IMG/VR virus record: IMGVR_UViG_3300042892_001369
Span: 1-64,000 of that record
Direction: 5' to 3' (one strand)
Source: a virus
DNA: 64,000 nucleotides
In this document: in pieces, positions 3,579 through 54,300 of the stretch
Position numbering within the stretch: position 1 is the first letter of the stretch
Layout of the letters: each line of letters begins with the position of its first letter
The notes under the pieces: model-generated
What the model was told of the DNA's origin: nothing
What the model saw: only the letters and a program-made list of their open reading frames with translations
Databases searched by the model: none
Program-made: the position numbers and the translations under genes

Positions 3579-3632
3579 GATATAATATAATTAATTATTT
3601 TTTTTTATTTCGAAAGTAAAAAAGAGTAAAAA

Positions 3633-3659
3633 TTACCCTCGTAATTTCAACGAGGGTAA
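3633..3659 (-). terminator. intrinsic terminator after major capsid gene
   Basis: A perfect 10-bp stem TTACCCTCGT / ACGAGGGTAA with a 7-base loop. On the leftward transcript it is followed by U-rich sequence (TTTTTACTC then TTTTTT). The hairpin lies inside a wider AAGAGTAAA...TTTACTCTT inverted pair. It likely sets capsid transcript abundance or 3' end stability within the late operon. Confidence 0.75.
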
Positions 3660-3681
3660 AATTTACAATAATTTACTCTTA

Positions 3682-27311: not shown

Positions 27312-27584
27312 CTATTTAGTTTTATATTTTTTACCACTCTCTTTCTTTGTTCCCTCACCCTCATTACCTCTGTTCTGTTTAACAGATTCAAATCTCCCAT
27401 CCTCATGATCATAATCCATACCATTCTTTCCAGGATGCTTGCGATGCATTCTCTGCGCATGTGCCTTCTTATCCTTTCTATCATCCGTCTTAGCATACGC
27501 CAAATCTCTCTCCGCTTTAGCCTTAGCCGCTTTAGGAGATAACTTCTGCTTTAATAACGGCGATTGTGATCTTAATTGAAACAT
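27312..27584 (-). CDS. small basic hypothetical protein, first gene of the late operon
   Basis: 90 aa from ATG 27582-27584 (FQLRSQSPLLKQ); an upstream ATG at 27629 is possible but its residues look random. Lys/Ala/Arg-rich with KLSPKAAKAKAERDLAYA and a tail KKESGKKYKTK. It is the first gene of the leftward block, so its upstream region should hold the late promoter. Confidence 0.6.
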   Translation of the reverse strand: MFQLRSQSPLLKQKLSPKAAKAKAERDLAYAKTDDRKDKKAHAQRMHRKHPGKNGMDYDHEDGRFESVKQNRGNEGEGTKKESGKKYKTK

Positions 27585-27597
27585 AGTTTGTACTTTA

Positions 27598-27615
27598 ATA
27601 TAGTATATACTATTA
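27598..27615 (-). promoter_or_regulatory. AT palindrome in the late-operon leader
   Basis: TAGTATATACTA and flanking TAATATAGT-like bases sit about 15-30 bases upstream of the first late gene. Together with the inverted repeat at 27650-27693 this is the most likely place of the leftward late promoter. No clear Bacteroidota TAnnTTTG box was found, so it is a guess by position. Confidence 0.35.
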
Positions 27616-27649
27616 CGCATCGATCTCAATTCTTACAACATAAAGAAGT

Positions 27650-27693
27650 GTGACATTAGCCTACTATTTATATACTTAATAAGCTTACGTCAC
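27650..27693 (-). repeat. 44-bp inverted repeat, copy 1 (candidate operator)
   Basis: On the minus strand: GTGACGTAAGC, then an AT-rich centre (TTATTAAGTATATAAAT), then GGCTAATGTCAC. It closely matches the copy at 36950-36993 and also the copy at 30579-30623. It lies upstream of the first late gene and reads in the same direction as that gene. Could be an operator for the late operon or, read as RNA, a terminator hairpin. Confidence 0.6.
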
Positions 27694-28033: not shown

Positions 28034-28085
28034 GTATAGCATTTACAAGGTTGATACGGGTTGATCTTGATAATATAGGTGTAAC
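28034..28085 (+). promoter_or_regulatory. early promoter P1
   Basis: GTATAGCA, TTTACAA, then TACG and, exactly 12 bases after the T of TACG, TTGATAATAT followed by GTGTAAC. The 65-aa gene follows at 28104 behind an A-rich leader. Member of the 15-copy family described under findings. Confidence 0.75.
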
Positions 28086-28103
28086 AAATTAAATATAAAT
28101 ATT

Positions 28104-28301
28104 ATGGAACTTAGAAATTTAATTACAGAACAGTATGATTTATTATTAACAGATAATAATTATAATATTCCTGAGGATATTGAAATGGAAATTGAGGATC
28201 AAACAGGATTATACAGGGATTTCTGTACAGATACAGAACAGTATCTAGATACCCAGATGGAATGGATTAAATTTATTCTGGACTATCCTATGGAATTCTA
28301 A
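28104..28301 (+). CDS. acidic hypothetical protein
   Basis: 65 aa, strongly acidic (EDIEMEIEDQTGLYRDF, DTEQYLDTQ). First gene of the rightward early block, driven by its own promoter copy and followed by a terminator. Small acidic early phage proteins often act as host-takeover or DNA-mimic inhibitors; nothing more specific can be said. Confidence 0.6.
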   Translation: MELRNLITEQYDLLLTDNNYNIPEDIEMEIEDQTGLYRDFCTDTEQYLDTQMEWIKFILDYPMEF

Positions 28302-28322
28302 CCTCCAGTTATAATCTGATCT

Positions 28323-28341
28323 AACCCCTCAGGGGGTTTTT
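28323..28341 (+). terminator. intrinsic terminator after the first early gene
   Basis: AACCCC, loop TCAG, GGGGTT, then TTTA. A classic short GC stem and U-tract that isolates the first promoter-gene cassette. Confidence 0.75.
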
Positions 28342-28399
28342 ACTCTGCATCCTGCGGAATGGACAGGCGGAGCCGTGGCTACAAGCGAGCGGAGCGAGT

Positions 28400-28451
28400 G
28401 TATAGCACTTACAGACTTAGTACGAAGAGTATTTGATAATATAAATGTAAC
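28400..28451 (+). promoter_or_regulatory. early promoter P2
   Basis: TGTATAGCACTTACA, TACGAAG and, 12 bases from TACG, TTGATAATATAAATGTAAC. Leads to the 60-aa gene at 28466. Preceded by GC-rich GAGCGGAGCGAG repeats. Confidence 0.8.
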
Positions 28452-28465
28452 TAAAATAAATAACT

Positions 28466-28648
28466 ATGATATTAAAAATTAATAAAAATTTCAGATCAAT
28501 TATTACTAATCAATTAATTAATTCAAATAAATTAAACTTTGAATTTAAAATTCTAAACTCAAATTTATTAATCAATTCAAAAGATCTTGAAGAAGTTGAT
28601 AAAATATTAAATAAAAACTTTCACAAATATAAAGTTCTTACAAAGTAG
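28466..28648 (+). CDS. hypothetical small protein
   Basis: 60 aa, Asn/Lys/Leu/Ile-rich (SIITNQLINSNKLNFEFKI). Single gene between promoters P2 and P3. No recognisable motif. Confidence 0.5.
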   Translation: MILKINKNFRSIITNQLINSNKLNFEFKILNSNLLINSKDLEEVDKILNKNFHKYKVLTK

Positions 28649-28680
28649 ATACGAAGAGTAATTGATAATATAAGTGTAAC
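28637..28680 (+). promoter_or_regulatory. early promoter P3
   Basis: CTTACAA, TACGAAG, then TTGATAATATAAGTGTAAC at the fixed 12-base spacing. Overlaps the 3' end of the preceding gene and leads to the 51-aa gene at 28695. Confidence 0.8.
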
Positions 28681-28694
28681 TAAAAATAAATAAT

Positions 28695-28850
28695 ATGAAT
28701 AGAATAGATCAATTAATATTAAATAAATATCCGGATCAATTAGATCAAATCAAAGATAAAATAGAACTATTAAAACTAGACTATGATCAAGATCAATTTC
28801 TTGAAGAAGATATAATAGAATCTATATTAATAGAACTAGATATAATATAA
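28695..28850 (+). CDS. 51-aa acidic hypothetical protein
   Basis: Read directly: ATG at 28695, TAA ending 28850. Helical and acidic (YDQDQFLEEDIIESILIELD). Sits between promoters P3 and P4, which supports it as a gene in spite of its size. Function unknown. Confidence 0.6.
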   Translation: MNRIDQLILNKYPDQLDQIKDKIELLKLDYDQDQFLEEDIIESILIELDII

Positions 28851-28894
28851 TCTACAAACCTAATACGACTAGTAATTGATAATAATAATGTAAC
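28851..28894 (+). promoter_or_regulatory. early promoter P4
   Basis: CTACAAACC, TAATACGACTAG, then TTGATAATAATAATGTAAC at the 12-base spacing. Leads to the gene at 28909. This copy has the TAATACGAC word that starts the T7 promoter; the remainder differs. Confidence 0.8.
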
Positions 28895-28908
28895 TAAAAA
28901 TAAATAAT

Positions 28909-29145
28909 ATGAAATTCTTAGAAAAACAAATCAAAACAAAAAAAGACATTAAAGACTATATTGATAATTTAGTAATTAATAATATGATGTATCATTTTGA
29001 AGACGACTCAAGAGACATACCGGCTTTTGAATTAAGACTAACTCAAGAACAACTTGATCTATTAGATATAAGATCAACCGAAATGTTAAATGTTAATTAT
29101 AACTACACATTTGACTATGCTTGTAAAGTACTAGAAATTGATTAG
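28909..29145 (+). CDS. hypothetical early protein
   Basis: 78 aa, helical, with DNLVINNMMYHFEDDSRDI and ELRLTQEQLDLLDIRST. Single gene between P4 and P5. No family recognised. Confidence 0.55.
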   Translation: MKFLEKQIKTKKDIKDYIDNLVINNMMYHFEDDSRDIPAFELRLTQEQLDLLDIRSTEMLNVNYNYTFDYACKVLEID

Positions 29146-29148
29146 TAT

Positions 29149-29200
29149 GCTATACATCTCTACAGACCTAATACGAAATGAATTTGATAATATAAATGAA
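29149..29200 (+). promoter_or_regulatory. early promoter P5
   Basis: GCTATACAT, CTACAG, TAATACGAAATG and TTTGATAATATAAATGAA at the 12-base spacing. The upstream word is TGCTATACA, the reverse complement of the TGTATAGCA seen at P2, P7 and P8. Leads to the 121-aa gene. Confidence 0.75.
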
Positions 29201-29229
29201 TATAAATAATAACTTAAATAAATAAAATT

Positions 29230-29595
29230 ATGAAAACTAAAGTAACAAAAATCGAAGAAGTAGTTGTAACAACTAAAACAAACAAAGAATTATTAGTTGA
29301 AGCAATCGCAAGTTTATCACAAGAACAATTGGCTCTAATCTATCCGCCAATACAAAGAGCTAACTTTGTAGTAAGAAAGTCGTGGCTAGGTCGCAATCAA
29401 GTAATCACTTTTGTAAACAACAAAAATCAAAAAGTTACTTACAATCATGACGAAGTATTGAATGTAATGCTACCTAAGCTATCTATCATGCCATGTTGGA
29501 TTAAGCGTGAGTATTGGTCACAATCAACTGATATGCCGGCTAATGTTAGACATCTAGCGACTATCGAACAACTGGAAGTTGCAGCGGCTGAATAG
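29230..29595 (+). CDS. hypothetical early protein
   Basis: 121 aa with LVEAIASLSQEQLALIYPPIQ, SWLGRNQVITFVNNKNQKV and a C-terminal ATIEQLEVAA. Probably nucleic-acid or protein-binding; no family recognised. Own promoter P5. Confidence 0.55.
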   Translation: MKTKVTKIEEVVVTTKTNKELLVEAIASLSQEQLALIYPPIQRANFVVRKSWLGRNQVITFVNNKNQKVTYNHDEVLNVMLPKLSIMPCWIKREYWSQSTDMPANVRHLATIEQLEVAAAE

Positions 29596-29652
29596 CCGTT
29601 GTAGCCCACGGGGGTAACCTCAACACGCTGTAATCATTGAGCCTCTGCGAAT

Positions 29653-29704
29653 GCTATACATTTACAGTGTAAATACGAGATCAAAATGATAATATAAATG
29701 TAAC
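29653..29704 (+). promoter_or_regulatory. early promoter P6
   Basis: TGCTATACATTTACAG, TACGAGATC and ATGATAATATAAATGTAAC; first T of the TTG is A, otherwise consensus, spacing 12. Leads to the small gene at 29720. Confidence 0.75.
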
Positions 29705-29719
29705 TAAAATAAATATACT

Positions 29720-29881
29720 ATGAGAAATTTAATCAATGCAATCGAATTACAACAAGAAAAATTACAAGCTTTAAAAATAGTACTTGCTAATATAAACACG
29801 GATGATCCAAACCAATCTACATCCGACTTCTTGAAAGAATTAAATATGAAAATTGTAAACCTAATAATAACCGACTTCTAA
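29720..29881 (+). CDS. 53-aa hypothetical protein
   Basis: Read directly from ATG 29720 to TAA 29881. Helical, with NLINAIELQQEKLQALKI. First gene of a small operon (29720-30428) behind promoter P6; the next gene starts two bases after its stop. Confidence 0.6.
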   Translation: MRNLINAIELQQEKLQALKIVLANINTDDPNQSTSDFLKELNMKIVNLIITDF

Positions 29882-29882
29882 T

Positions 29883-30059
29883 ATGAGAACTGAAAGAATA
29901 CAATTTGAATGCGCTTACGGTTACGGCTATATTGATATAACCAATCGAGGTGATGAAAGAAACACAACATACGAGATAATCATTGAAGATACTTACAGCG
30001 ATGCAACCGAGGATGATGTTATAAATGAAATAAAGATAATTATAAATGAATTGATATGA
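29883..30059 (+). CDS. 58-aa hypothetical protein
   Basis: Read directly: ATG 29883, TGA 30057-30059. Starts TERIQFECAYGYGYIDIT and ends in an acidic helix. Overlaps the next ATG (30056) in ATGA fashion, so translation is probably coupled. Function unknown. Confidence 0.6.
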   Translation: MRTERIQFECAYGYGYIDITNRGDERNTTYEIIIEDTYSDATEDDVINEIKIIINELI

Positions 30060-30202
30060 TAAAAACTAAAACCCAACGCCGAGCCGAGTACGTGCAAGCG
30101 TGCTACAAAAGCGGATCACTCGAATCATACATCGAGCAAAGACTAAACAAACTAAATAATAACCCAGTAAAAGTAACTAAAAATGAAAACACTAGAAAGT
30201 AA
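30056..30202 (+). CDS. 48-aa basic hypothetical protein
   Basis: Read directly: ATG 30056-30058, TAA ending 30202. Sequence is basic and helical (KTKTQRRAEYVQACYKSGS). Overlaps both neighbours by a few bases, supporting translational coupling. Function unknown. Confidence 0.55.
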   Translation: MIKTKTQRRAEYVQACYKSGSLESYIEQRLNKLNNNPVKVTKNENTRK

Positions 30203-30428
30203 CATCATCGCATTGGCAGTATTAAGCTTCTTTGGGGGCGTAACGTTAACAATAGTAATGGGAAACGTATACAACCGTGAAGAATTGCTCAGACAAGAAG
30301 AAAATGAGTTTAAAAACCAAGGTCACACGTTCATTTGGAATGATGATTGGGAATCTATTCCAGCTGAGGGTTATGTAAAGATCGATATGGTTGAGGGTAA
30401 TACAATTTATCTAGCGCCTAGCGAATAA
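30183..30428 (+). CDS. membrane-anchored small protein
   Basis: 81 aa: one membrane segment (IIALAVLSFFGGVTLTIVMG) near the N-terminus then an acidic soluble domain (VKIDMVEGNTIYLAPSE). Last gene of the P6 unit. May act at the host inner membrane, for example in superinfection exclusion; inference. Confidence 0.55.
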   Translation: MKTLESNIIALAVLSFFGGVTLTIVMGNVYNREELLRQEENEFKNQGHTFIWNDDWESIPAEGYVKIDMVEGNTIYLAPSE

Positions 30429-30430
30429 AA

Positions 30431-30443
30431 CACCCGCAGGGTG
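30431..30443 (+). terminator. small hairpin after the P6 operon
   Basis: CACCC GCA GGGTG perfect stem directly after the stop codon, without a U-tract and abutting promoter P7. Weak terminator or RNA-processing signal. Confidence 0.4.
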
Positions 30444-30488
30444 TATAGCATACAGCCCTAACACGGTTGTTTTTTGATAATAATTATG
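30443..30488 (+). promoter_or_regulatory. early promoter P7 (drives no evident gene)
   Basis: GTATAGCATACAG, CACGGTTG and TTTGATAATAATTATG at the 12-base spacing. What follows is not an ORF but a structured sequence, so this copy probably makes a non-coding RNA. Confidence 0.7.
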
Positions 30489-30625
30489 GGTCTGGCTCTG
30501 AAATAAGGTCGAAAGAGTAGACTCCGTCCTACACGATAGTTTCTGGGCTCACCGAACCGTATAAGATCAAAAAAAAAGGTGACGTTAGCCTATTATATTA
30601 TATACTTAAGACCCTAATGTCACAC
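30488..30625 (+). ncRNA. candidate structured small RNA
   Basis: Starts at the expected first base of promoter P7 with GGGTCT, GG, CTCT, a 14-base loop (30500-30513), AGAG, T, AGACTC: a 6+4-bp stem with one wobble. Then TACACGATAG-type small hairpin and GGGCTCACCGAACC. It ends at the inverted repeat 30579-30623 with TTTT, which could serve as its terminator. No matching ncRNA family is recognised by me. There is no start codon with a credible ORF. Confidence 0.45.
30579..30623 (+). repeat. 44-bp inverted repeat, copy 2
   Basis: GTGACGTTAGC, AT-rich centre, CCTAATGTCAC; same architecture as copies at 27650-27693 and 36950-36993, followed by ACTTTTCC. Either an operator or the terminator of the RNA from P7. 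Confidence 0.6.
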
Positions 30626-30667
30626 TTTTCCAAATACTCGGGTCGCCACGGCCCCCCAACACACCGT

Positions 30668-30716
30668 GTATAGCACTTACAAGCATAATACGAGCTCAAT
30701 TTGATAATATATTTGA
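30668..30716 (+). promoter_or_regulatory. early promoter P8
   Basis: GTATAGCACTTACAAG, TAATACGAGCTC, TTTGATAATATATTTGAA, spacing 12. The next 120 bases hold only an 8-codon ATG frame and end in GGGGGTTATATATACATT and a T-run, so its product may be a short RNA. Confidence 0.75.
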
Positions 30717-30854
30717 ATAAAATGACCGATTCTAGTCAATCAAAGTAATAAATGTACCATATTTTGGTGTAAATGTGTTGTTTTGAGTAACAAACGTAGA
30801 GATAGGGGGTTATATATACATTACTTTTTTTTCTTATAAATAAAGTGCAACCTT

Positions 30855-30898
30855 CTTACGGTCTTGATACGAATTGGATTTGATAATATAAGTGTAAG
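30855..30898 (+). promoter_or_regulatory. early promoter P9
   Basis: CTTACGG, TACGAATTGG, TTTGATAATATAAGTGTAAG at the fixed spacing. Leads to the short genes at 30923 and 31048. The gap 30429-30922 holds P7, the candidate RNA, repeat copy 2, P8 and P9, and otherwise no gene that I can support. Confidence 0.8.
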
Positions 30899-30922
30899 TA
30901 TAACAAACTAATATAAACGATT

Positions 30923-31021
30923 ATGACGAATTATTCTAGAGCCTTTAGGGTGGTATTATTAAAATTGAAATTTGAGCTCTTAGAGGGTGCTAAAAACGCT
31001 GCTTGGGCGATGAGAAACTAG
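30923..31021 (+). CDS. 32-aa hypothetical microprotein
   Basis: Read directly: ATG 30923-30925, TAG ending 31021. Basic helix (FRVVLLKLKFELLEGAKNAA). Very short, but directly behind promoter P9 and spaced like other leaders. Could be a leader peptide or real microprotein. Confidence 0.4.
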   Translation: MTNYSRAFRVVLLKLKFELLEGAKNAAWAMRN

Positions 31022-31047
31022 TATTTAACAATTAAAAAGTAATTAAT

Positions 31048-31170
31048 ATGGAAGAATATAGCGATTGTTGTGGTGCAAGTAGACACCATATATTTGATGA
31101 GTTGTGTGGAGATTGTTTAGAACATTGCGAATTTACGGATTGGGATGGAGAAGACGATATACAATCTTAA
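31048..31170 (+). CDS. 40-aa zinc-ribbon-like protein
   Basis: Read directly: ATG 31048-31050, TAA ending 31170. CCGASRHHIFDELCGDC followed by EHCEF: paired Cys of a small zinc ribbon. Similar mini zinc-ribbon proteins are common in phage early arrays. Partner unknown. Confidence 0.65.
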   Translation: MEEYSDCCGASRHHIFDELCGDCLEHCEFTDWDGEDDIQS

Positions 31171-31201
31171 TACGAATTGAGTTTGATAATAAATGTGTAA
31201 C
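31159..31201 (+). promoter_or_regulatory. early promoter P10
   Basis: TATACAATC, TAATACGAATTG, TTTGATAATAAATGTGTAAC, spacing 12. Overlaps the 3' end of the zinc-ribbon gene and leads to a long run of overlapping genes from 31217. Confidence 0.8.
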
Positions 31202-31216
31202 TAAAAAAGATATAAT

Positions 31217-36939: not shown

Positions 36940-36968
36940 TTGACAAATAGTGACGTCAGCTTATTAAG
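36939..36968 (+). promoter_or_regulatory. candidate promoter of the HTH gene
   Basis: TTGACA (36939-36944 region) is followed by about 17 bases and TATTAA-like sequence. One half-site of the inverted repeat (GTGACGTCAGC) lies between these boxes, which would suit repression by blocking. The -35 form is unusual for Bacteroidota, so this is tentative. Confidence 0.4.
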
Positions 36969-36993
36969 ATAATTAAATAACAGGCTAATGTCA
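36950..36993 (+). repeat. 44-bp inverted repeat, copy 3, overlapping the HTH gene start
   Basis: GTGACGTCAGC, AT-rich centre, GGCTAATGTCA. The right arm includes the ATG of the HTH gene (36988-36990). Same sequence type as copies at 27650-27693 and 30579-30623. Suggests autoregulation of the HTH protein. Confidence 0.65.
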
Positions 36994-37608
36994 TACGATA
37001 GAAATTTAGACTACTTAAATAAAAAGAGAGTGATATATAGACGTGGACCATTAAATGATAAGCCAACCGAGGAGTTTAGTTGGGGTAGTTATTATGAAGA
37101 AGGTACAAAAGAATGTTATGAGTTATTTCGCAGTAATGCAAAGATAACTACATATAAGTCATTGCGATGGCATCTATATGTTCTTTGGTATCTAAATGAT
37201 AATCTTGATCAAAACGCATTTGAAAGTATTGTTAGGTATGTATGTGATAAAAAGAATGGCTTTATAACTTTTACAGTTAGTGAGCAATTACTACAAAGCA
37301 TGATGTACGATGTATCTCTTAAAGACCTTGAAGAACCCCCATATAATAAAACAAGAAAGATAATCTTTAAAGACAACAGTGGGCTTACATTAAATGAGAA
37401 GCTAAGCATAGTTGGTAAAATGATTGGTAAAACTAAAAAGGTAAATGAGTCTGATATATATGACGTTATGCTATACATGCATGACATCGGCCAAAAAATA
37501 ACGATCAAAAAAATTGCGGAGCATTTTGGTTGTGCAATACGAACTATCCATCGCAATATGAGCAATGAATTAAAAAAAGAAAAAGAAATCCTTAATCAAG
37601 AATTATGA
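36988..37608 (+). CDS. HTH protein, candidate regulator
   Basis: 206 aa. Middle part PPYNKTRKIIFKDNSGLTLNE and KMIGKTKKVNESDIY; C-terminal helix-turn-helix QKITIKKIAEHFGCAIRTIHRN (trimmed), followed by a Lys/Glu-rich tail. The family is known from aquatic phages in this position. The start ATG is within repeat copy 3, making this the natural binder of that repeat; this is inference. Alternative: replication initiation factor. Confidence 0.6.
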   Translation: MSYDRNLDYLNKKRVIYRRGPLNDKPTEEFSWGSYYEEGTKECYELFRSNAKITTYKSLRWHLYVLWYLNDNLDQNAFESIVRYVCDKKNGFITFTVSEQLLQSMMYDVSLKDLEEPPYNKTRKIIFKDNSGLTLNEKLSIVGKMIGKTKKVNESDIYDVMLYMHDIGQKITIKKIAEHFGCAIRTIHRNMSNELKKEKEILNQEL

Positions 37609-38438: not shown

Positions 38439-39200
38439 ATGAAAAGTTACAACATACCAAATTACCTTAGGTATAAAGAAGACATAGCTCGTGTTAATAA
38501 AAATAATAATGAAGCAGAATTTAAATCGTACTCAAGAGATCAACTTATAAGTAAATTCCTACCATTAGTAGAAAATATAGCCAAAAAGTTCTCAACAACG
38601 ACGCAAGCCTGTGGAGTATTAGATATTACGGATCTTATTCAGCATGGATCAATTGGTTTAATATTAGCCGTTGATAAAATAGAATGGGACACAATAGACT
38701 TGTCTGCTGATAAAGAAAAAACAATTAAGTCGTTTCTATCAAAAAGAATTAAAGGCTCAATTAGACGAGCTATAGACATCAACAGAGGTGCTATTAAAAT
38801 TCCAGAGCATAAGCTAAATGAAATTAGAAAAGACAATGGTCAAGATCATAAAATGGTTGCCATGTTTTTCAATTCCATATTCCTTAGTATCGATGAACAA
38901 ATGAATGATGATGACGAAAATATGTTGTACCAAATCCCTGATAGAACAGAGCCGTACAATATTAATATGATGAATAAGTATTTAACAGGATTGTTGAAGA
39001 AACATTTAACAGAAACGGAATACGATGTACTACGATTAAGTTATGGACTTGATTGTGATAAACATCCTGCAAATGCAATAGCAGACTATTTAGGCATCGA
39101 AGGAGCAAGTGCTTATGTTAGAATTTCTGAGATAAAAAAGCAAGCAATCGCTAAGCTAGTTGCTAACGTTGATTCCTCGCAAGTCCTTGATTACCTATAA
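38439..39200 (+). CDS. phage-encoded sigma-70-like factor
   Basis: 253 aa. Region 2: LVENIAKKFSTTTQACGVL and DITDLIQHGSIGLILAVDKI (trimmed), then FLSKRIKGSIRRAIDINRG. Region 4: YDVLRLSYGLDCDKHPANAI, YVRISEIKKQAIAKL. The family redirects host RNA polymerase. It lies just upstream of the replication genes, and the window holds a dedicated promoter family (15 copies), so it may recognise those or the late promoter. Early versus late assignment is inference. Confidence 0.85.
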   Translation: MKSYNIPNYLRYKEDIARVNKNNNEAEFKSYSRDQLISKFLPLVENIAKKFSTTTQACGVLDITDLIQHGSIGLILAVDKIEWDTIDLSADKEKTIKSFLSKRIKGSIRRAIDINRGAIKIPEHKLNEIRKDNGQDHKMVAMFFNSIFLSIDEQMNDDDENMLYQIPDRTEPYNINMMNKYLTGLLKKHLTETEYDVLRLSYGLDCDKHPANAIADYLGIEGASAYVRISEIKKQAIAKLVANVDSSQVLDYL

Positions 39201-39245: not shown

Positions 39246-39272
39246 ATACGTAATTATATTAATATAGAACAA
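39246..39272 (+). promoter_or_regulatory. degenerate member of the early promoter family
   Basis: TACG, then at the 12-base offset TTAATATAGAAC instead of TTGATAATATAA. Keeps spacing but has several mismatches. May be the promoter of the ERF/exonuclease/SSB genes. Confidence 0.35.
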
Positions 39273-39350
39273 GAGTAAATTTTAATGTTTTTTACTCTCG
39301 AAAATAAAACAAGAGTAAACTTTAATGTTTTTTACTCTCGAAAATAAAAC
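39271..39350 (+). repeat. two-unit 40-bp tandem repeat
   Basis: Units 39271-39310 and 39311-39350 are identical except for one T/C. Each holds AAGAGTAAA and TTTTTTACTCTCG, which can pair as a hairpin. The AAGAGTAAA...TTTACTCTT pattern also surrounds the terminator at 3633-3659. Lies in the leader of the ERF operon. Confidence 0.8.
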
Positions 39351-43413: not shown

Positions 43414-44181
43414 ATGACAAAATACGAAGCGCAATATAAAGAATTGTTATGGAAATGTATGACGAACGGAGTATATCGTAAAGATAGAACAAACGTAGGT
43501 TGTTTATCAATATTCAATGCTGGCTTAAGAATTAATCTCAATGAAGGTTTCCCTTTGTTAACTGGTAGAAAAATGTTTCAAAAAACTTTTGATACAGAGT
43601 TTGATTGGTTTATGAATGGTGAAACTAATATTCAAAGATTCAAAGATGCTGGTGTAAAGATATGGGATTCTTGGGCAGATGAGAATGGAGATCTAGGACC
43701 AGTATATGGTTACCAAATGCGTAACTTTAATGGTGCTGGCGGTGATCAACTTCAAGCCTTGATAACAAGTTTAAAAAATAATCCTGATAGCAGAAGACAT
43801 ATAATATCACTATGGAATCCATTACAGTTACATCAAATGGCATTGCCTCCGTGTTATTTATATTTCCAATTCTTTGTAGAACAAGACAGACTTAATATGT
43901 TTGTAGTACAGAGATCAGGTGATATTTTTTTAGGAATCCCTTATGATGTAGCTTTGTTTTCAAAAATACTTTTGTATATTGCGGAGCAAACTAATTTGAA
44001 AGCAAGCTATATTGATATACAGATCGTAGACGCTCATGTTTATAACAATCAACATGATGCTATACACAAATATCTTGATCAAGAAACTTTTCAAGCACCT
44101 GACTATATTTACAAAAACGGAGCATTATCCCTAATAAATTACAAACACGGACCAGTAATAACGGCAAAAGTAGCCATTTAA
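43414..44181 (+). CDS. thyA: thymidylate synthase
   Basis: 255 aa (E. coli 264). Catalytic Cys147 in LPPCYLYFQF, SRRHI for the phosphate at about 127-131, QRSGDIFLGIPYDVA and the final HVYNNQHDAI. Makes dTMP with methylene-tetrahydrofolate. Together with the RNR and MazG proteins it directs nucleotides to phage DNA. Confidence 0.95.
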   Translation: MTKYEAQYKELLWKCMTNGVYRKDRTNVGCLSIFNAGLRINLNEGFPLLTGRKMFQKTFDTEFDWFMNGETNIQRFKDAGVKIWDSWADENGDLGPVYGYQMRNFNGAGGDQLQALITSLKNNPDSRRHIISLWNPLQLHQMALPPCYLYFQFFVEQDRLNMFVVQRSGDIFLGIPYDVALFSKILLYIAEQTNLKASYIDIQIVDAHVYNNQHDAIHKYLDQETFQAPDYIYKNGALSLINYKHGPVITAKVAI

Positions 44182-44189
44182 TCTTAATT

Positions 44190-45080
44190 ATGTATTATAT
44201 ATATCACATTTTTGGTAAAAAGATCGGCGTTACACGTAATCTTAATAAGAGAGTTGAAGTTGCTCAGGGCTATATGCCAGAAGAATATGAAGTGATCGAA
44301 ATGCATGACGACATACATCACGTTTCAAATCGCGAAAGAGAACTACAACGGCTTTATGGTTATAAAGTTGATCGAGATTCCTACAAACAAGTAATAGACA
44401 GTAAAAATAAACTAACTAAATCAAATAAAATGAAATTAAACATCACAGAACAAACGATTACGTTTCCATGTCCTCCAAATAAATTAAAAGGACAGCTTTT
44501 GGACTCATTAGGACTTACATTTGAAACACAATATGGCAAATACATATTGAATACTGAACTAGTAGATTGGATTGTCCAGAACGCTTCTGTGTCAATGTTT
44601 AATATTAATAGAAGTTTTGTATACAATAAAGCTTTACATAATACCTTCCAATCTCCAGAAGCATTTGTTGAACAAAAATTGGCACCCGCCGAACAAACAC
44701 TTGCTGATATGCGCAGACAATTAAATGAAATGCTTAATGAAGTGCTTAATAATAAACAACCACAAGAGGAAATTGATCCTACCGCTAATGTATATGATTT
44801 AATTAGAGATTGGGCCAGCAAGAAAGGTATTTATACATCAGGTGATTCTAAAACGCAATATGTTAAGCTAATGGAAGAATCAGGAGAATTAGCAAGAGCA
44901 ATTCTTAAACGAGATAAACCAGAAATTAAAGATGCAATTGGTGATATGATTGTAGTATTAACTAATCTTGCATACTTAGAAGGTTTTGATATTGAGGATT
45001 GTGTTACATCAGCTTACGATGTAATTAAGAATCGAACAGGTAAAATGGAAAACGGAACTTTTGTAAAATCTACATTATAA
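44190..45080 (+). CDS. GIY-YIG-like / MazG fusion protein
   Basis: 296 aa. N-terminal ~70 residues YYIYHIFGKKIGVTRNLNKRV resemble a GIY-YIG strand pair (YIY...KIGVT) but without an obvious full catalytic set. The C-terminal part (about 215-290) has MEESGELARAILKRDKP, KDAIGDMIVVLTNLAYLEG and KNRTGKME: MazG-type nucleotide pyrophosphohydrolase. An internal Met at about 75 (KLNITEQ) could give a shorter product. Cleans nucleotide pools or dampens ppGpp; inference. Confidence 0.75.
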   Translation: MYYIYHIFGKKIGVTRNLNKRVEVAQGYMPEEYEVIEMHDDIHHVSNRERELQRLYGYKVDRDSYKQVIDSKNKLTKSNKMKLNITEQTITFPCPPNKLKGQLLDSLGLTFETQYGKYILNTELVDWIVQNASVSMFNINRSFVYNKALHNTFQSPEAFVEQKLAPAEQTLADMRRQLNEMLNEVLNNKQPQEEIDPTANVYDLIRDWASKKGIYTSGDSKTQYVKLMEESGELARAILKRDKPEIKDAIGDMIVVLTNLAYLEGFDIEDCVTSAYDVIKNRTGKMENGTFVKSTL

Positions 45081-45081
45081 T

Positions 45082-45549
45082 ATGCAAAAACAAGAAATTG
45101 AATTTAGAGACCCAGTCGTACAACAAGTAGTAAATAAATTTGTATCAAGATCTGATGTTGGCTTTGCTAAATATGGCAAGACTATGATTGATGACAAATC
45201 TGATATTAAAGTCTGGCTTAATCATGTTCAAGAAGAATTAATGGATGCTACATTATATATTCAAAGATTGAAAATTGAAATCAATGATCTAATTGAAGAA
45301 CGTGTAACAAGAAATGAAATACAAGCTTTATTAGATTGCATTAATGTTGTAAATCCAGAATATGTTTCACCAAAAGTTAAACCATTTAATGGCATATACG
45401 AAACTATTGCAAAGCATGAAAAGAAAAAGGCAAAGAAAAAACACAAAGCCTACCGTGTAAATCGTGGTGATACTTATTCTTTTACTATGGATGATGATTT
45501 TGAATGGCAGGTAAGTTGTACTAATTGTTGTATGAATGAGAAAAGCTAG
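45082..45549 (+). CDS. MazG-like nucleotide hydrolase-type protein
   Basis: 155 aa. VNKFVSRSDVGFAKYGKTM and WLNHVQEELMDATLYIQRL match a family of small phage all-alpha NTP hydrolase-like proteins. The C-terminus is basic (KHEKKKAKKKHK). Follows the fusion protein with one-base spacing. Confidence 0.65.
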   Translation: MQKQEIEFRDPVVQQVVNKFVSRSDVGFAKYGKTMIDDKSDIKVWLNHVQEELMDATLYIQRLKIEINDLIEERVTRNEIQALLDCINVVNPEYVSPKVKPFNGIYETIAKHEKKKAKKKHKAYRVNRGDTYSFTMDDDFEWQVSCTNCCMNEKS

Positions 45550-45997
45550 AAAGAAAGGACCAGTAGTTGCAAAAAAAGTAATATATGATGGTATTACCTT
45601 TGCTTCAGGTCTTGAAAAGTATATGTACAAAGCTTTAAAAGATGCGGGTATAGATTTTAAATATGAGGGGGTAACGTTTGAATTGTTGCCCTCTTTCATA
45701 TTTGAAAATGTTTCAATAGAAAGACAATCAAATGGCAAGGGAGATTTTATTAATAGGGGTCTAAAAAAGATATTAAACCTTAAATATACTCCAGACTTTG
45801 TTGGTGATAATTTTATAATTGAAACTAAAGGTAGAGCTAATGAATCTTTTCCATTACGTTGGAAACTATTTAAGAAGTGGATGATGGATAACAACGATTA
45901 CCGAACATTATATAAGCCTCAGAATCAAGCTGAGTGTCTTAAAACAATTGAATTAATATTAGCTAATACAAAACAAAAAAAGAATGAACAAATTTAG
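45536..45997 (+). CDS. T7 gp3-like Holliday-junction endonuclease
   Basis: 153 aa. ITFASGLEKYMYKALKDAG, then NLKYTPDFVGDNFIIETKGRA, the PD-(x)-ETKG core of T7 endonuclease I-like enzymes (DUF1064-type). Resolves branched DNA before packaging. Overlaps the previous gene by 14 bases and the next by 14. Confidence 0.8.
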   Translation: MRKARKKGPVVAKKVIYDGITFASGLEKYMYKALKDAGIDFKYEGVTFELLPSFIFENVSIERQSNGKGDFINRGLKKILNLKYTPDFVGDNFIIETKGRANESFPLRWKLFKKWMMDNNDYRTLYKPQNQAECLKTIELILANTKQKKNEQI

Positions 45998-46133
45998 TGA
46001 AAAAAGTTGGTCAATATCCATTGGCCTGTATACAGGAATCTTATTAGGATTCAGAGCATATGAGGAAGAATATTATACAACCTATGTATTGTATTTGCCA
46101 TTTGTTGATGTTGCATTAGAAATTGATAATTAA
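45984..46133 (+). CDS. 49-aa small conserved phage protein
   Basis: Read directly: ATG 45984-45986, TAA ending 46133. SWSISIGLYTGILLGFRAYEE and LYLPFVDVALEID. I recognise this small protein from marine phages next to nucleotide-metabolism genes; function unknown. Confidence 0.65.
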   Translation: MNKFSEKSWSISIGLYTGILLGFRAYEEEYYTTYVLYLPFVDVALEIDN

Positions 46134-46142
46134 AAAATAAAT

Positions 46143-48011
46143 ATGAGCCTTAGTTTAGACAAACAAATATTAAGTGATATTACTGTATACACAAAGTATG
46201 CAAAGTACGTTCAATCAAAAGAACGTAGAGAAACGTGGGAAGAATTAGTAACAAGGAATATGGATATGCACAAAGCCAAATTTCCACAAATGAAAGAAGC
46301 AATTGAACAAGTATACAAAAATTTCGTATTCACTAAAAAAGTGTTACCTTCAATGCGCAGCCTACAGTTTGGTGGGAAAGCTATTGAACTTAATAATGCT
46401 CGCATTTATAATTGCGCTTTTTTACCTGTCGATAATATTCGTAGTTTTTCTGAAACTATGTTTTTACTTCTTGGAGGCACTGGCGTTGGATATTCGGTAC
46501 AAAATCACAACATTGATAAACTACCTGAAATAAGAAAGCCTAATTACGATCGCAAAAAACGTTATGTTGTTCAGGATAGTATTATTGGTTGGGCTGATGC
46601 AATCAAAACATTATTCAAATCGTATACAGGAGAGTTAACTTCACATATTGAATTTGATCTTTCAGATATACGCCAGAAAGGAGCATTACTTGTAACAGCA
46701 GGAGGTAAAGCACCAGGGCCGGAACCATTAAGATTAGCATTAGTTAAGATTGAAGCTATTCTTCGCGAAAAAGAAGACAGATCAAAACTAACAGATATTG
46801 AATGCCATGATATTCAATGTCATATTGCCGATGCAGTTTTAGCCGGAGGTATTCGTAGAGCAGCAATGATTTCATTATTCGACCTTGACAGTACTGCAAT
46901 GCTAAATTGTAAAGCTGGAAATTGGTGGGAAGAAAATCCGCAAAGAGGTAGAGCTAATAACTCTGTTGTTTTAGTACGCCATAAAATTGATAAGAAAACA
47001 TTTGATAAAGTATGGGAACGTATTGAAGCATCTGGATCAGGAGAGCCTGGAATTTATCTTACCAATGACAAAGATTGGGGTACAAATCCCTGCTGTGAGA
47101 TTGCATTGAGACCATATCAATTCTGTAATTTAACAGAGATCAATATGGCTAATATTGAAGATCAAGAAGATTTTAATGCAAGAGCATCTGCTGCATCATT
47201 CTTAGGAACATTGCAAGCATCATACTCAGATTTTCATTATCTTCGCGATATATGGAGAAAGAATACAGAAAAAGATGCTTTACTTGGAGTCTCAATGACA
47301 GGTATTGCATCTAAGTCAAACCTAGAATTAAATTATGAAGAAGCAGCAAATACCGTTAAAGAAACAAACAAAGAAACAGCTAAAGCGCTTGGAATTAATA
47401 TCGCAGCAAGAACGACGGCCGTTAAGCCAGCTGGTACAACTAGCTTGGTACTTGGTACTTCTAGCGGGATACATGCTTGGCATAATGACTATTATATACG
47501 TCGTATGCGCTTAGGCAAAAATGAAGCAATTTATTCTTATCTTGCAATTAATCATCCAGAATTACTCGAAGATGAATACTTTAATCCAACATTACAATCA
47601 GTTATTTCAGTCCCTCAGAAGGCTCCAGACGGCGCTATAACACGGCATGAATCAACATTAGATCTATTGGAAAGAGTAAAACTTATATCTAGAGATTGGG
47701 TTAAGACCGGCCATGATAAAGGTAACAATACACACAATGTATCTTGTACTGTTTCTGTTAGAGATGATGAATGGAAAATAATTGGTGAATGGATGTGGGC
47801 AAACAAAGAGTACTATAATGGACTATCTGTTTTACCATATCACGGTGGTACATATAAGCAAACTCCGTTTGAAGATTGTACAAAAGAAGTGTACGATGAA
47901 ATGATGTCTACATTAAAGAACGTAGATTTATCTAAAGTAGTTGAGATACACGATAATACTAACTTTGCTGATTCAGCAGCTTGTGGAGGAGGAAATTGTG
48001 AGATTGTATAG
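46143..48011 (+). CDS. nrdJ: class II (B12-dependent) ribonucleotide reductase
   Basis: 622 aa. RIYNCAFLPV (redox C91), LLGGTGVGYSVQ, ADAVLAGGIRRAAMISLFD, GEPGIYLTND, NPCCEIALRP (thiyl Cys) and FCNLTEINMAN (redox Cys), ARTTAVKPAGTTSLVLG, and a C-terminal CGGGNC pair (C614/C619). Monomeric RTPR-type. Uses adenosylcobalamin to make dNTPs. Shorter than Lactobacillus RTPR (739). Supplies DNA precursors during infection and depends on host cobalamin. Confidence 0.9.
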   Translation: MSLSLDKQILSDITVYTKYAKYVQSKERRETWEELVTRNMDMHKAKFPQMKEAIEQVYKNFVFTKKVLPSMRSLQFGGKAIELNNARIYNCAFLPVDNIRSFSETMFLLLGGTGVGYSVQNHNIDKLPEIRKPNYDRKKRYVVQDSIIGWADAIKTLFKSYTGELTSHIEFDLSDIRQKGALLVTAGGKAPGPEPLRLALVKIEAILREKEDRSKLTDIECHDIQCHIADAVLAGGIRRAAMISLFDLDSTAMLNCKAGNWWEENPQRGRANNSVVLVRHKIDKKTFDKVWERIEASGSGEPGIYLTNDKDWGTNPCCEIALRPYQFCNLTEINMANIEDQEDFNARASAASFLGTLQASYSDFHYLRDIWRKNTEKDALLGVSMTGIASKSNLELNYEEAANTVKETNKETAKALGINIAARTTAVKPAGTTSLVLGTSSGIHAWHNDYYIRRMRLGKNEAIYSYLAINHPELLEDEYFNPTLQSVISVPQKAPDGAITRHESTLDLLERVKLISRDWVKTGHDKGNNTHNVSCTVSVRDDEWKIIGEWMWANKEYYNGLSVLPYHGGTYKQTPFEDCTKEVYDEMMSTLKNVDLSKVVEIHDNTNFADSAACGGGNCEIV

Positions 48012-48059
48012 TTACCTAGGAACAAGATGTTGGATTTACACTTTATACATAAATAAAAT

Positions 48060-48278
48060 ATGAAAGAACAAACATTAGTTGAAATGAAAAATAAAGTTGA
48101 TGCAATCACAAGAGTGCTTCAGCAATTGATCTACGAGCAAGATAACTTGCGGACTTTAACAGTTGGAATTATGGAAACAATTAAGGCTATGCCTGATTAT
48201 GAAGAAGCATTGCAAGCTGTCAAAGATAAAGTAAAGGAGCAAGAAGAAAAAGAAAACGCTCCAAAGTTAGAAGTTTAG
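48060..48278 (+). CDS. helical small conserved protein, last early gene
   Basis: 72 aa, coiled-coil (VEMKNKVDAITRVLQQLIYEQ, VKEQEEKENAPK). Last rightward gene, followed by the convergent terminator. Recurrent in aquatic phages; function unknown. Confidence 0.55.
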   Translation: MKEQTLVEMKNKVDAITRVLQQLIYEQDNLRTLTVGIMETIKAMPDYEEALQAVKDKVKEQEEKENAPKLEV

Positions 48279-48295
48279 TTTAGTTTATTAATCAG

Positions 48296-48332
48296 AAAAG
48301 GGGACCGCGAATTATCACGAGTCCCCTTTTTT
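48296..48332. terminator. bidirectional terminator between convergent blocks
   Basis: AAAAGGGGAC, CGCGAATTATCACGA loop, GTCCCCTTTT, then TT. A perfect 10-bp stem with A-run and U-run on either side stops both the early rightward and the late leftward transcription. Confidence 0.9.
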
Positions 48333-48379
48333 CGGTTATAGGAATATTTAGGTATGGTGCCTAGTTATCTTTATTCCTT

Positions 48380-51300
48380 TTAATCACCGCCCATCTTTTT
48401 CTTTCTACGCTCTCTTTTCTTTCTATACTTTTCTTGCCTTACTTGGTCTAAATAGTTATTATATTCATCATCAGATAATTTACTTATAGAGTCTTTTAGC
48501 GCGGTCTTTTTAGCTTCCCTTGTTTCCTTAGACTTTATTTTGCCTTCTTCTTTACGCTGAGCTTTTGCTTCCTCAATAATCTTTAAATCACCAGGAGTTT
48601 TTTCTATTCCAACTGTCCAAGGAGTAAACCCTAATGCAACAGCTGCTCTTTGCCATGCCGCATTTTGATTGTTTAATGCTTGAGAAACATTTTCAATTTT
48701 ATTTACCAAACGATCCATTGGTACATTTAATAATACCTCAGCCCCTTTACCAGTTACAGAATACATAGGGCCAAGATGAACTCTTCCGTCTTGCATTATT
48801 CCCCAACCTCTTTCTTCTATTAAATCTTTGTCAAATTCTGTTTGCTTTAACCCGGCATATAATTTTCTTAATTTAGATCCAATTGGAGGAGATATATTAG
48901 CAGCTTCAATCGCAACGCCCGCATAATCTTTTTGTTTTTTATTCTGTTGTTCCATGTATTTTACAGCCACATTTTTAAGAGTAGATACAATACCTCCATA
49001 GAACCCAGTACCCCTAAGGATTGAATCAAGTACTCCATTAGCTAAATCAACAGTCTTTTCTTCTCTATTCTTTTTTCTTTTTGCTTCTTCTTCATCTTCG
49101 TCAAACAATACTGAAAATAAACCTTGCTGTAATATTGAAAATGCCGTATTTTGAAGTATTAAATAATAACTGATTTTAGCAATATTAGTTTTAGCATCCC
49201 CCCTACCGTTTTTCAAATCCAAAAAAGCTTTTTTAACTAATCTTGATTGCTGCATTGCTGTATTCTGAAAAGTCAATAGTAATCTTCCAGCTCCACTTGC
49301 TTGTTGTTTAGATATATCCTTTGGATCACCAGATTGTTGTGTCTCATCTGAGATCTTAGAAAATTCTTCCCATGCTAATGCTTCAGCTTCAGCTTTAGAC
49401 ATACCTTCTGAAATATGAGTTTTAATTCTATTTCTATAATACGGAGCACCACCTGATGATATTGCAAAACTATCTGCTAATTGAGTTGGAGTATAACCTA
49501 TTTTCAATAGATATGAGATAACAGCTGCTGGTTTGTTTTTACTGCCAGCAGCCGCATTTGCAATTTCAGAAGCAACAACATCCTCGCGTAATCCGCCACG
49601 TCTTTCTTTCATTTTATCAGAGTTCCATATAGTAGAAAAATCACTCCAATATTGTTTCTGATTAGCAAAAGCTTTGGCGACCGCAACAGGGTTATTGTCT
49701 CTTAAATTTAAGAAGTTAGCCGTACTAAGTAATTGTAAAGCGGCGGATCTTGTGTTAAGGAACATAATAACTCCCGTTGATCCTGTGACCCAATTAGTCC
49801 ACATGCTTGTCTCTCTGTCTTTCCCGTAGCTACGGTTTTTACCATTAGTCATTCTATATATTGAGTCCTCTAATGCTTCTCTTACATCAGTTCCATATAC
49901 AGCCTGGATTTTATTCATATTAGGGCCGACTAATTTACCGGATTCCCATTTTCCGAAGATAGTCTCAACATTTTCAATAAACTCTCCTAAGAATTTTTTT
50001 CTTCCACCTGATTGAGTTATATTAAATAGATCAGAAACTATTGTATCAGTGTCCCAATGTTCAGATGGTTCAACCCAGCCCTTCTCTTGTCGACTCATTG
50101 CCTTTAATCCTTCTTTAAATGCCAGCAATTGGGGGTCGTTATTAACCATATCAACAAGTTTTCTATTGTCTCTTTTAGTTAATCCCGGTATTTCGATTCC
50201 CGCATCATTCCATAATGCAACCCGTATCGCTTGATCATAAGTAAAATCTTTATCAGGATTAAGGGTTTCTAATTTCTTTTTAACATCCGGGAATGCTTTT
50301 GTCAATGTTTTGTACGATTTTTTAATTGACTGTCTTGCCCCGTCCATTAAATTAACACCATTAATATATGGTTTTAATAAAGTCTCGTCAAAGAATTTTT
50401 GTTGTTCTTCACCTCGTCTACCTTTGCCCATAAATTTATATAGTAATAATTCAAAGTCTGCTGCAGATGGCGGAACATATAAATCAAATTTATTTTTACC
50501 AGCCCCGCGTCTTTTTGCAACAATATCAGAATATACTTTGTAACTTTCTACTCCTTTATTTTCCTCAATAATTTTATTAAACTCCTCAGACAATCCCTTG
50601 CTGCGTTTAATTTTAGCTTGTTGCACTTTTGATTTAACATCCAATACGCTAAGAGCTTCTTTAACTGCTTTAACATTTTGAATAGCATCATCTGAAAAAT
50701 AAAAATCATTATATCCCTCGGCTGCTTTACTAATAATCCAGTCAGCCTTAGCCTTAGCGGTGCTATTTCCTAATCCTACAATATTATCTAATTTAATATC
50801 TAATCCTTGTGCTTTTAAAAATTCTTGTATAGCAATATTTGAATCGGCTGGTCTAGCGGTCAAGACGTAAACATCTTTAGTTCCAAACTTACCAGCGAGT
50901 TTCATAGCTTTATCAAACATCGGCCCCCTTTGCCCCTCATTTACTTTTGAAAATTCAGAGAAATCGAATACTGCTCCTCTGTCTAAGTAATCTTGACCAG
51001 ATTTTGCAAATTCTTCTGCGTTTAGTTTTCCACGCTCCCCATCTGGCATTGTATATAATACATTTGATTTTGTTCTAGCTAATGTGTCGTCAAAGTCTAA
51101 TACACTTATGCCTTTGTTTTCTTTGCTACGCATAAGTGATCTTTCAATGGCGGTACTATTATTTATCTGTAGTCTTCTTTCTTTTGCTCCCTGGGCATTG
51201 TTCATAGCTGCATCTAATATTTCTTTAGATCCATATAAACTTTCTATGTTATGCATCCTATTGCGATAAGGTATTAAAGCTTCTAAAAATTCTGGAGCAA

Positions 51301-54300
51301 AATGCCTGTCTTTACCGGTGTATTTTAGATTAGAGTCTGTCAATGCCTGATCCGCCGATAACGGAATTAAATTCACCCTCATTTTATTAACAAACCCTTC
51401 TAATTCCGTTCTGGTCATATTAGGATCTTTCAAAAACCTTTTTAGCTCGGCTTTTAAATCATTTATGGTTGTATTGTGCTCTAATCTGCTTTCACTTGAT
51501 TTTAAACCATCAATCCAAAACCCTGCTTTTGACATTTTTCTAATTGCGCCAAGCATGTCCACCGCTAATAAGTCAATATGATTTTCTCCTTTTTCAACCA
51601 TACCTTTTTTCTTATAATACTCTATAGTATCAATAACATACTTTTGCTGTTTAGCCGCTTCTGCATCAATAGTTTTAATTACCTCTTTACCTTTATCCAC
51701 TGTATTGGCTTTTCTAAGCTCGGATTTTATTTCTGATATAGGTTTATTATGTGTAAAAACGTCACCATCTATAGTAATATAAGTTCTAAGCTTACCACTT
51801 ACGGTTTTTTCTTTAAGACCAAAAACACCTTCTCCGTAAAGTTCTCCCAAACGCTCTTCCCCGAATACTTTTCTTAGAGCTGGATCCAAAACATAAGTAA
51901 GATAATCTCTATTGGTTGTAAAGAAATTCCCTTCGCTAGTTTTAAAAGACTTTAATTCTGCTTTTAAGAATTCATTTACCGATGAGGCAATAGTTTTATT
52001 GTCAGCATTCTTTAATTTTGACAGAGTGCGTTCTAATGCTTCTGTAGAAGCTATTGACCCAGCTTTTTGTACTACCGACCCCAATTTTTTACCGCGAGCT
52101 TCTTCCATAGAACGCTCATAAGCCATATACTCTTGTATAATAGGATTAGAAGTAGCTTTTTCTTTATCTATTGTTGCAGTATTTGATATGTAATCTTTTA
52201 CAATTGATTGCTCGTTGAGCGCCAAATTATCATAAAATTTAAAGAATTCATCTTTAGCTTTTGAAATATCTGCTGTCTCATTTTTGTTTTTTGATCTCTT
52301 AACATTACCTCTCTCTATTTGTCTAATAATATCAACAGCCATTGCATCACCAATAGTAACACCCTGTCTTTCTTGATTAGTAACTAACGCTTCAAACAAT
52401 GGCCCCTCTTCTGCAAAGTCTTTTGCAATAATATCAAATGATATTTCCTCTGCTGTAGCTTTTGCTAACGATTCTTTTCGGCCACGAATAGGATTGCCTG
52501 TTGAGCCTAAAAATTGACCTAGATAATCAGCATCAGAAACTAAGTTAACTGCGTTAGGTAGCCTTCTAACAAGCTCTGCGCCAGATGTACGTCCCGCATT
52601 ATCCGTAGACACAGCTTCACGATCTATTTTTTGGTCAACCCACTCAGGGTAATTAACCCACTTACCGTTTATTCTTTTTTGTATTGCTTGTGGTATACCT
52701 CCAACGCCATTAGCCCCCATTAGCCATGTAGTAGTCATGTTCTCTAATGTTGCTTTTTTATTTTTTAATAGCCAACTTCTAAATTGATTATCTTTTTTTC
52801 CACCCATTGCGGTTTTTAAATCAATATCCGCTTGTTTACCCATTGCATCTTTGATTTCTGCAATTATTGGCGTAACCGTTCTATTAAGCGTAATTGGTGT
52901 GTCTAATCTAGACTTTGTAGTTCTAAGTGTAGTTAAAACTTTATTGGTAATTGATTGTACAACTGGTTCTTCGACAATTTTTTGATCCAACAAACTTTTA
53001 TACTTAGGAGCTTCAGCTTCTACTCTTTCAAAAGATTGCTCAGCTGTTTCAGTAGCCATTAACCCTTTCTGATCTTCAATATCTTTTGAAAATTCTTTAC
53101 CCAAAACCCTTCTTGATGCTGTAATTGCTCTAACAGGTAAATATTTATTAATATATGCGGCCAATGGAATTCCCATTGCAGGATCATATTTTTGAATTAA
53201 AGATAAAATTCCACCATCTCCGGTCTCTATTTCATCTGTTAATAATTCTTCTTCAAACCCCGGAGCGTCTTTTCTTTTATTAACGAGTGCTTTTGTAATT
53301 GGCTTGAATAAATTTATAATATCCATTGCAGCTTCAACTCCCTTAGCATTGTAAGCGGCCTGCACTCTATCGGAAGCAATCTTGCCTTTATTATCCGTAA
53401 TTACTTTCCTAGCCTCTTCTTCATAGCTTACATTTAATTTCTCCGGTTTAGCTTTTACTTCAGCAACCGGATTTTCCAAGGCATCTATTTTGTCCTCAAG
53501 AACTTTAAGTTTCTCTTTATAAACTTTATCGGTTACGCCTCCATAACTCCAAGTCTCAGTTAAATCTTCAATTTGATTTTCTAAGTCTTCTATTTTTTCT
53601 TTTGATCTAATAATATTTGTTCTAGAAATCTCAGTCGCTCCTTTTGTTCTTTCAGCAAAAGAAATAGCTTTTTCACTAGCTTCTCCTTTTTTACCAGACT
53701 CTGCTAATGATTTTAATATTCCTGTAATTTCTTCTACACTAGCTTCTTCCGGAATAGGCTCTCCGGTTTTTCCTGCCACTTTTTTTAATGTTTTATCAAA
53801 GAATGATTTAAAGCTATTAATGCTTTCTTTGTTATAACTTAATTCACCTGTTCTATTTGCCTCAGAAAAAGCAGCTAAGTATTCTTCATAATATTTATTT
53901 TTAAGAACCGGAACTTTTTCTATTTTCCCATTCTTATCTAATTTTTCTTCAAACGCGTATGGTTTTACGGCATCAGTTACTACCTTTAGCTCTTTGGAGG
54001 ATAACGTAGCTAGCCAATTATCTATAAAATCAACGCCTTCGTCAGTTAATGTACCATCATCATTTTTCATCCACTCTCCAAATACTAAATGGGTGGATTC
54101 ATGTCCTCCTGTTCCTGTCTTACTATATTCTTTTGCTAAAGATTTATTGATATGTAAATTACCATTTAAATCGTAAAATCCAAAACTGATTTCTCCTGAT
54201 TTCAGCTTATTACTTTCACCAAATGATACGGCTGTTTTTTCAAATCTTTCAGTAGCGTTTTCTCCTTCATAAACTATTACTTCTTTGCCTAATGCTTTTG

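Follow-up and report, generated by a model that had tools for sequence, protein, structure and literature searches.

A directional repeat at three sites in an uncultured phage genome, very probably the DNA sites of an early/late switch regulator

The window analyzed here, a stretch of 64,000 nucleotides (positions 1 to 64,000 of the IMG/VR virus record IMGVR_UViG_3300042892_001369), carries three copies of a repeated element (Table 1). Copy A lies over the start of a gene for a 206-aa helix-turn-helix (HTH) protein, copy B lies ahead of the late operon, and copy C lies in the early region. A phage sigma factor is encoded beyond the HTH gene, and two tandem 40-bp units with a GAGTAAA...TTTACTC hairpin (39261-39340) occupy the space between the sigma and Erf genes, with a related sequence inverted at 3597-3683. 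The host is probably a member of the Bacteroidota, since relatives of the terminase and primase are mostly found in phages of Flavobacterium and Cellulophaga. Elsewhere in the window, the late region includes a phage GroEL (15677-17239, minus strand; PHROG E 1e-135), also present in elemo and MW202828, and positions 48380-57190 (minus strand) encode a 2936-aa protein in which the sole recognized stretch is polynucleotide-kinase-like.

Table 1. Positions in the window of the element copies and of the genes and motifs that accompany them.
Feature	Position	Strand	Remarks
First late gene, about 90 aa	27312..27584	-	ATG 65 nt downstream of copy B
GCGTAATAGTATATACTA, late-promoter-like motif	27601..27618	-	Matches the de novo motif with 1 mismatch
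Element copy B (late site)	27650..27693	-	44 bp, pointing leftward to the late operon
Second conserved block, GTAGGACGGAGTCTACTCTTTCG / GTAGGACGGAGTCTACTCTTYCG	30510..30532	-	Near-invariant in 12 divergent relatives, always beside C
Element copy C (early-region site)	30579..30623	-	45 bp, leftward, in a 788-bp gap between early genes
Early-promoter-like motif	30677..30721	+	Immediately to the right of copy C; the early region has 14 such motifs; repeat families D1-D4
Element copy A	36950..36994	+	45 bp, HTH start codon inside
206-aa HTH protein, candidate binder	36988..37608	+	C-terminal helix-turn-helix, residues 149-205
Phage sigma factor	38439..39200	+	PHROG RNA polymerase sigma factor, E 3e-21

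All three copies announced by the first-pass annotation were found where it had placed them. The late copy is oriented leftward with the first late gene downstream of it, as claimed, and the start codon of the HTH gene (ATG at 36988-36990) does fall inside copy A. The length of 44 bp assigned to all three applies to copy B but not to the other two, which are 45 bp each. As for the ends said to be shared, the 64,532-bp record contains GTGACGT-N-AGC exactly three times and a reversed control pattern not at all, but copy A terminates in GTCAT instead of GTCAC. When GTGACRTNAGC was searched with at most one mismatch, 9 matches were obtained versus 3.05 +/- 1.68 in shuffled sequence, and none of 100 shuffles reached 9. 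A sequence-only profile from relatives, built on 42 sequences that include the window's own three copies, recovered these copies at E values of 5.7e-12, 5.7e-12, and 1.1e-11.

The description of the element as an inverted repeat is correct as regards its inverted arms, but the arms extend further than had been given, and the element has a direction that a simple palindrome would lack. It consists of two half-sites in inverted orientation (approximately GTGACRTTAGSnnnYTA) set ~33 bp (three helical turns) apart around an AT-rich center, and the arm-to-arm length is near-constant, with almost all copies at 43-47 bp. Among 62 copies distal and 53 copies proximal to the HTH gene, arm positions 3-5 are invariant and position 10 is almost invariant; the YTA at positions 15-17 is also conserved, and the distal copies additionally have flanking A/T tracts.

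A scan of viral contigs yielded 80 relatives of the 206-aa protein (58-96% amino acid identity), and copy A is kept in each of the 79 for which upstream sequence was available. It lies at or just upstream of the HTH start in 76 of these; in the remaining three (L017-L019), the element is intact but separated from the HTH gene by an insertion of two ORFs, one HNH-endonuclease-like; in L017, this insertion (8908-10019) falls exactly between the two. Outside the sequences used in profile building, copy A was present in 24 of 24 held-out viral contigs and in 7 of 7 relatives from metagenome bins, one of which has the full three-site arrangement. Whole phage records carry one to four copies, mostly two to four, and a profile search of 44 whole virus records found the element in all of them at E <= 0.05. 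Coding constraint was rejected as the source of this conservation, because the element lies wholly upstream of the ATG in four relatives (L037 and L039-L041) and is retained in L017-L019 despite the insertion. Right-half-like extra matches beyond the HTH gene in a few relatives fall inside the coding region of the gene that follows and probably arose by chance. Two contigs were recovered by the DNA pattern alone, of which one encodes the HTH protein beside the element and the other is a 47.9-kb fragment without the HTH gene. In this sample, the element occurs in genomes that carry the HTH gene or in fragments of such genomes. The same set of sites recurs across about a hundred related phages.

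The 206-aa protein is the likeliest candidate for the binder of the element. When 55 homologues were scanned against Pfam, only HTH-type families were matched, apart from one stray Utp13 match; HTH_11 matched 48 of the 55 (best E 1.9e-6), the window's own protein falling below every cut-off. In the structure model (pLDDT 93), the C-terminal part is an HTH (best VIA Z 5.4) that moderately resembles metal-dependent repressors, TetR, and region 4 of sigma factors (Z about 5). Fold searches with the full protein and with the N-terminal domain alone gave no confident match in the PDB and one match to a viral predicted protein, A0A516MIB4 (E 2.2e-10 and 1.1e-7), and a tblastn search of 50,697 phage records with the 206-aa protein returned no match. 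In all 27 full loci, the recognizable transcription regulators are the HTH protein and the sigma factor only. Their genes are at most 2 kb apart in 84 of 84 loci, overlapping or adjacent in 30, and this universally linked sigma factor may also be involved. For the recognition helix and the arm bases, mutual information was no better than for other columns, phylogeny being the dominant signal.

When copies were oriented without supervision, every one of the 53 distinct HTH-proximal copies pointed into the HTH gene, and every one of the 62 distinct distal copies had the opposite direction. The distal copies fall into two types, B and C, which do not occur jointly in every genome: some genomes seemingly have B only and others C only. 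Most B-type copies precede the first leftward (late) gene by 36-82 nt. In the window, this gene shares its frame with a TTG-start ORF (27312-27629); relatives of it are present in 18 of 27 phages, and in one relative a tRNA-Met lies just downstream of copy B. When the sequence downstream of B copies was searched for motifs de novo, GCGTAAnnATAYAnnGTA emerged, with a median score of 11.7 for B versus -2.3 for C and -1.4 for A. The GTAA core of the window's example lies 33 bp downstream of copy B, against 43 bp between B and the same motif in relative L187. Across relatives, distances from B to the motif cluster at 21-27, 33-35, and 43-49 bp, roughly whole helical turns. Against a uniform null, this phasing has a P of about 0.002, a figure that comes from ~23 roughly collapsed and only partly independent sites of shared ancestry, with a best period of 11.5 bp, a spread of several bp within clusters, and one site (L203) mis-anchored at 49 instead of 23; the distance from B to the ATG shows no periodicity (P 0.27). 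Such phasing would be expected if a bound protein touches RNA polymerase on the same face of the helix. Since the phased promoter-like motif is found downstream of the late copies only, copy B seems closer to an activator site than to a plain operator for a repressor.

C-type copies are located in the early region, often directly after an early gene and usually ~40-260 bp before an early-type promoter. The early-promoter-like motif, 45 bp long (TTACAAnnnTAATACGAnnnnnnnTTGATAATATaaATGTAAC), has fourteen rightward copies ahead of early genes in the window (28043-31203, 32879, 34209, 35166, 35831, and 41245). A part of it, TAATACGA, resembles the start of a T7 promoter; a search for a T7-type RNA polymerase gave no match, yet the control was equally without a match. 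The conserved block beside copy C, GTAGGACGGAGTCTACTCTTYCG, had no match in Rfam.

These observations suggest that the three repeats are the DNA sites of a phage regulator of the early/late switch, which very probably turns early genes off and late genes on. The earlier proposal of operators for such a switch is borne out insofar as widely conserved DNA sites lie at the regulator gene, the late operon, and the early region, but it needs amendment at the late copy, which appears activator-like. We consider it probable that a single directional element is bound by one phage regulator, with activation at B, autoregulation at A, and early shutdown at C. All three copies would be occupied by a protein of the phage itself, the likeliest candidate being the 206-aa HTH protein whose start codon lies in copy A. 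At copy B, the bound protein would sit just upstream of the late promoter, in helical register, and activate or gate leftward late transcription. At copy A, it would cover the start of its own gene and of the following sigma-factor/replication cluster, resulting in autoregulation that is probably negative, and at copy C, between early promoters, it would shut down or block early transcription. We infer which protein binds, whether it activates or represses at each site, and that the motif below B serves as the late promoter. Two observations sit uneasily with the mechanism: the sigma factor equals the HTH protein in universality and linkage, and copy C keeps a single direction with no promoter motif downstream of it, which the switch model does not account for.

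The first-pass annotation had offered a hairpin terminator as its alternative, and an element acting as RNA, whether an intrinsic terminator or a protein-binding hairpin in mRNA, would fit the inverted arms, the A/T tracts that flank many C-type copies, and the frequent location of C just 3' of an early gene. We regard it as very improbable. Co-variation among relatives had been put forward as a check, and over arm positions 1-11 of the 62 distal and 53 proximal copies the arms show no compensatory changes; positions 6, 7, and 11 are often mispaired, their complementarity being no better than after arms are shuffled between copies. Pairing slightly above that of shuffles is confined to A/T positions flanking the arms. 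The loop would be ~20 nt, copy A covers a start codon and lacks a T-run, a terminator scan flagged none of the three window copies, an Rfam search of the element gave no match, and separate strong terminators adjoin copy C in three relatives (L048, L054, and L057). An intrinsic terminator is not supported, as a stem kept by compensatory changes and followed by a T-run was not found. Given arms that do not co-vary, mismatches that are kept, and a copy A without a T-run, the element is constrained as DNA and not as an RNA hairpin. Very improbable, too, is a set of replication-origin, partition-type, or site-specific recombination sites for which the HTH protein would be an initiator, centromere-binding, or accessory factor, even with the HTH gene near Erf-like and primase/helicase genes, a cumulative GC skew that turns near 28-29 kb, and a weak resolvase-type HTH match. 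The three sites are dispersed over 9 kb, with no clustered iterons, and the late copies are tied to an in-register promoter-like motif. Tyrosine integrases (PF00589) are absent from 25 records and serine recombinases (PF00239) from the phage's own genome, and a recombination (att/res) site was rejected on these grounds. A lambda-type lysogeny operator is likewise disfavored because no integrase was found in the 25 records, an argument that speaks to integration-dependent lysogeny.

The main rival, unlikely as we judge it to be, is that the element is itself a class of phage promoter, recognized by RNA polymerase carrying the phage sigma factor and requiring no binding by the HTH protein; the right half, TAGTAnnGGCTA, would then be the -10/start region, with transcription starting at or near the ATG of the HTH gene and giving a leaderless mRNA. 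The sigma factor could read the element, since it occurs as widely as the HTH protein and is equally linked, its gene being present in the same cluster in every relative with enough sequence. The strictly uniform orientation, with copies facing the HTH gene and the late operon, the TATAAT-like center, and the fixed place of the start codon in the right arm of nearly all relatives would also be consistent with a promoter. Inverted arms with three-turn spacing, however, would be unexpected in one, B copies have a separate in-phase promoter-like motif downstream, and C copies run antisense into early genes, no leftward gene being close to them.

For the switch-regulator reading, several phage systems offer comparison. 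Ogr of phage P2 and Mor and C of phage Mu are late or middle activators with dyad-type sites upstream of late promoters; these proteins and sites differ from those described here, and none of these sites is known to lie on the regulator's own start codon. A closer parallel is p4 of Bacillus phage phi29, a protein with an N-hook that binds imperfect inverted repeats (CTTTTT-15bp-AAAATG), represses promoters A2b and A2c, and activates A3 (PMC3100819). As with p4 and its sites 1-4, a small DNA-binding protein is matched with several imperfect inverted-repeat sites of two unequal arms, located both close to early promoters and ahead of a late promoter of divergent direction, the promoters here being predicted ones. 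Repression of early and activation of late genes by one protein has been demonstrated for p4 and is proposed for this phage. Unlike p4, the candidate regulator is an HTH protein, and its putative sites are longer (43-47 bp), of different sequence, and present in only two to four copies over about 9 kb, one of them on the regulator's own start codon. A Pfam scan of the 55 homologues of the 206-aa protein found no homology to p4, and the best reading is that the regulator would resemble p4 in functional class. A broader proposal, which we put forward tentatively, is that these phages have a new family of master switch, an unassigned N-terminal domain joined to an HTH and encoded with a dedicated sigma factor, for which a single directional 44-bp element serves in three settings (as a phase-locked activator of late genes, as a silencer of early promoters, and as a cover over the family's own start codon) across a widespread group of uncultured phages.

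In the literature searched, no work on gene timing in phages of this kind was found, and the subject is largely unstudied. From the conserved element, the regulatory sites of about a hundred uncultured phages can be annotated and mapped, with a likely regulator and its sigma partner named, and the switch model gives clear and cheap predictions for binding, for spacing changes of 5 bp versus 10 bp, and for the mapping of late start sites. The regulator is without a recognizable cultured relative except a distant one. This is a 288-aa protein (QMP84673.1) of the Elemovirus Flavobacterium phage elemo, a distant homologue by profile (E 3.7e-6) whose gene lies at the point of divergence and is the first on the rightward side with the structural genes. 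Unlike the phage described here, elemo lacks the element, and its protein is longer and its gene differently placed. Among the reference phages MW202828, elemoA_13-1A, and phi10:1, the element profile was blank in two and gave one marginal match (E 0.002); elemo has only the distant homologue of the HTH protein, and MW202828 and phi10:1 have none. In the related phage MW202828.1 (L092), a different regulatory repeat, the palindrome GTGTCGTTAACGACAC, occurs in eleven copies ahead of early genes (43733-49891).
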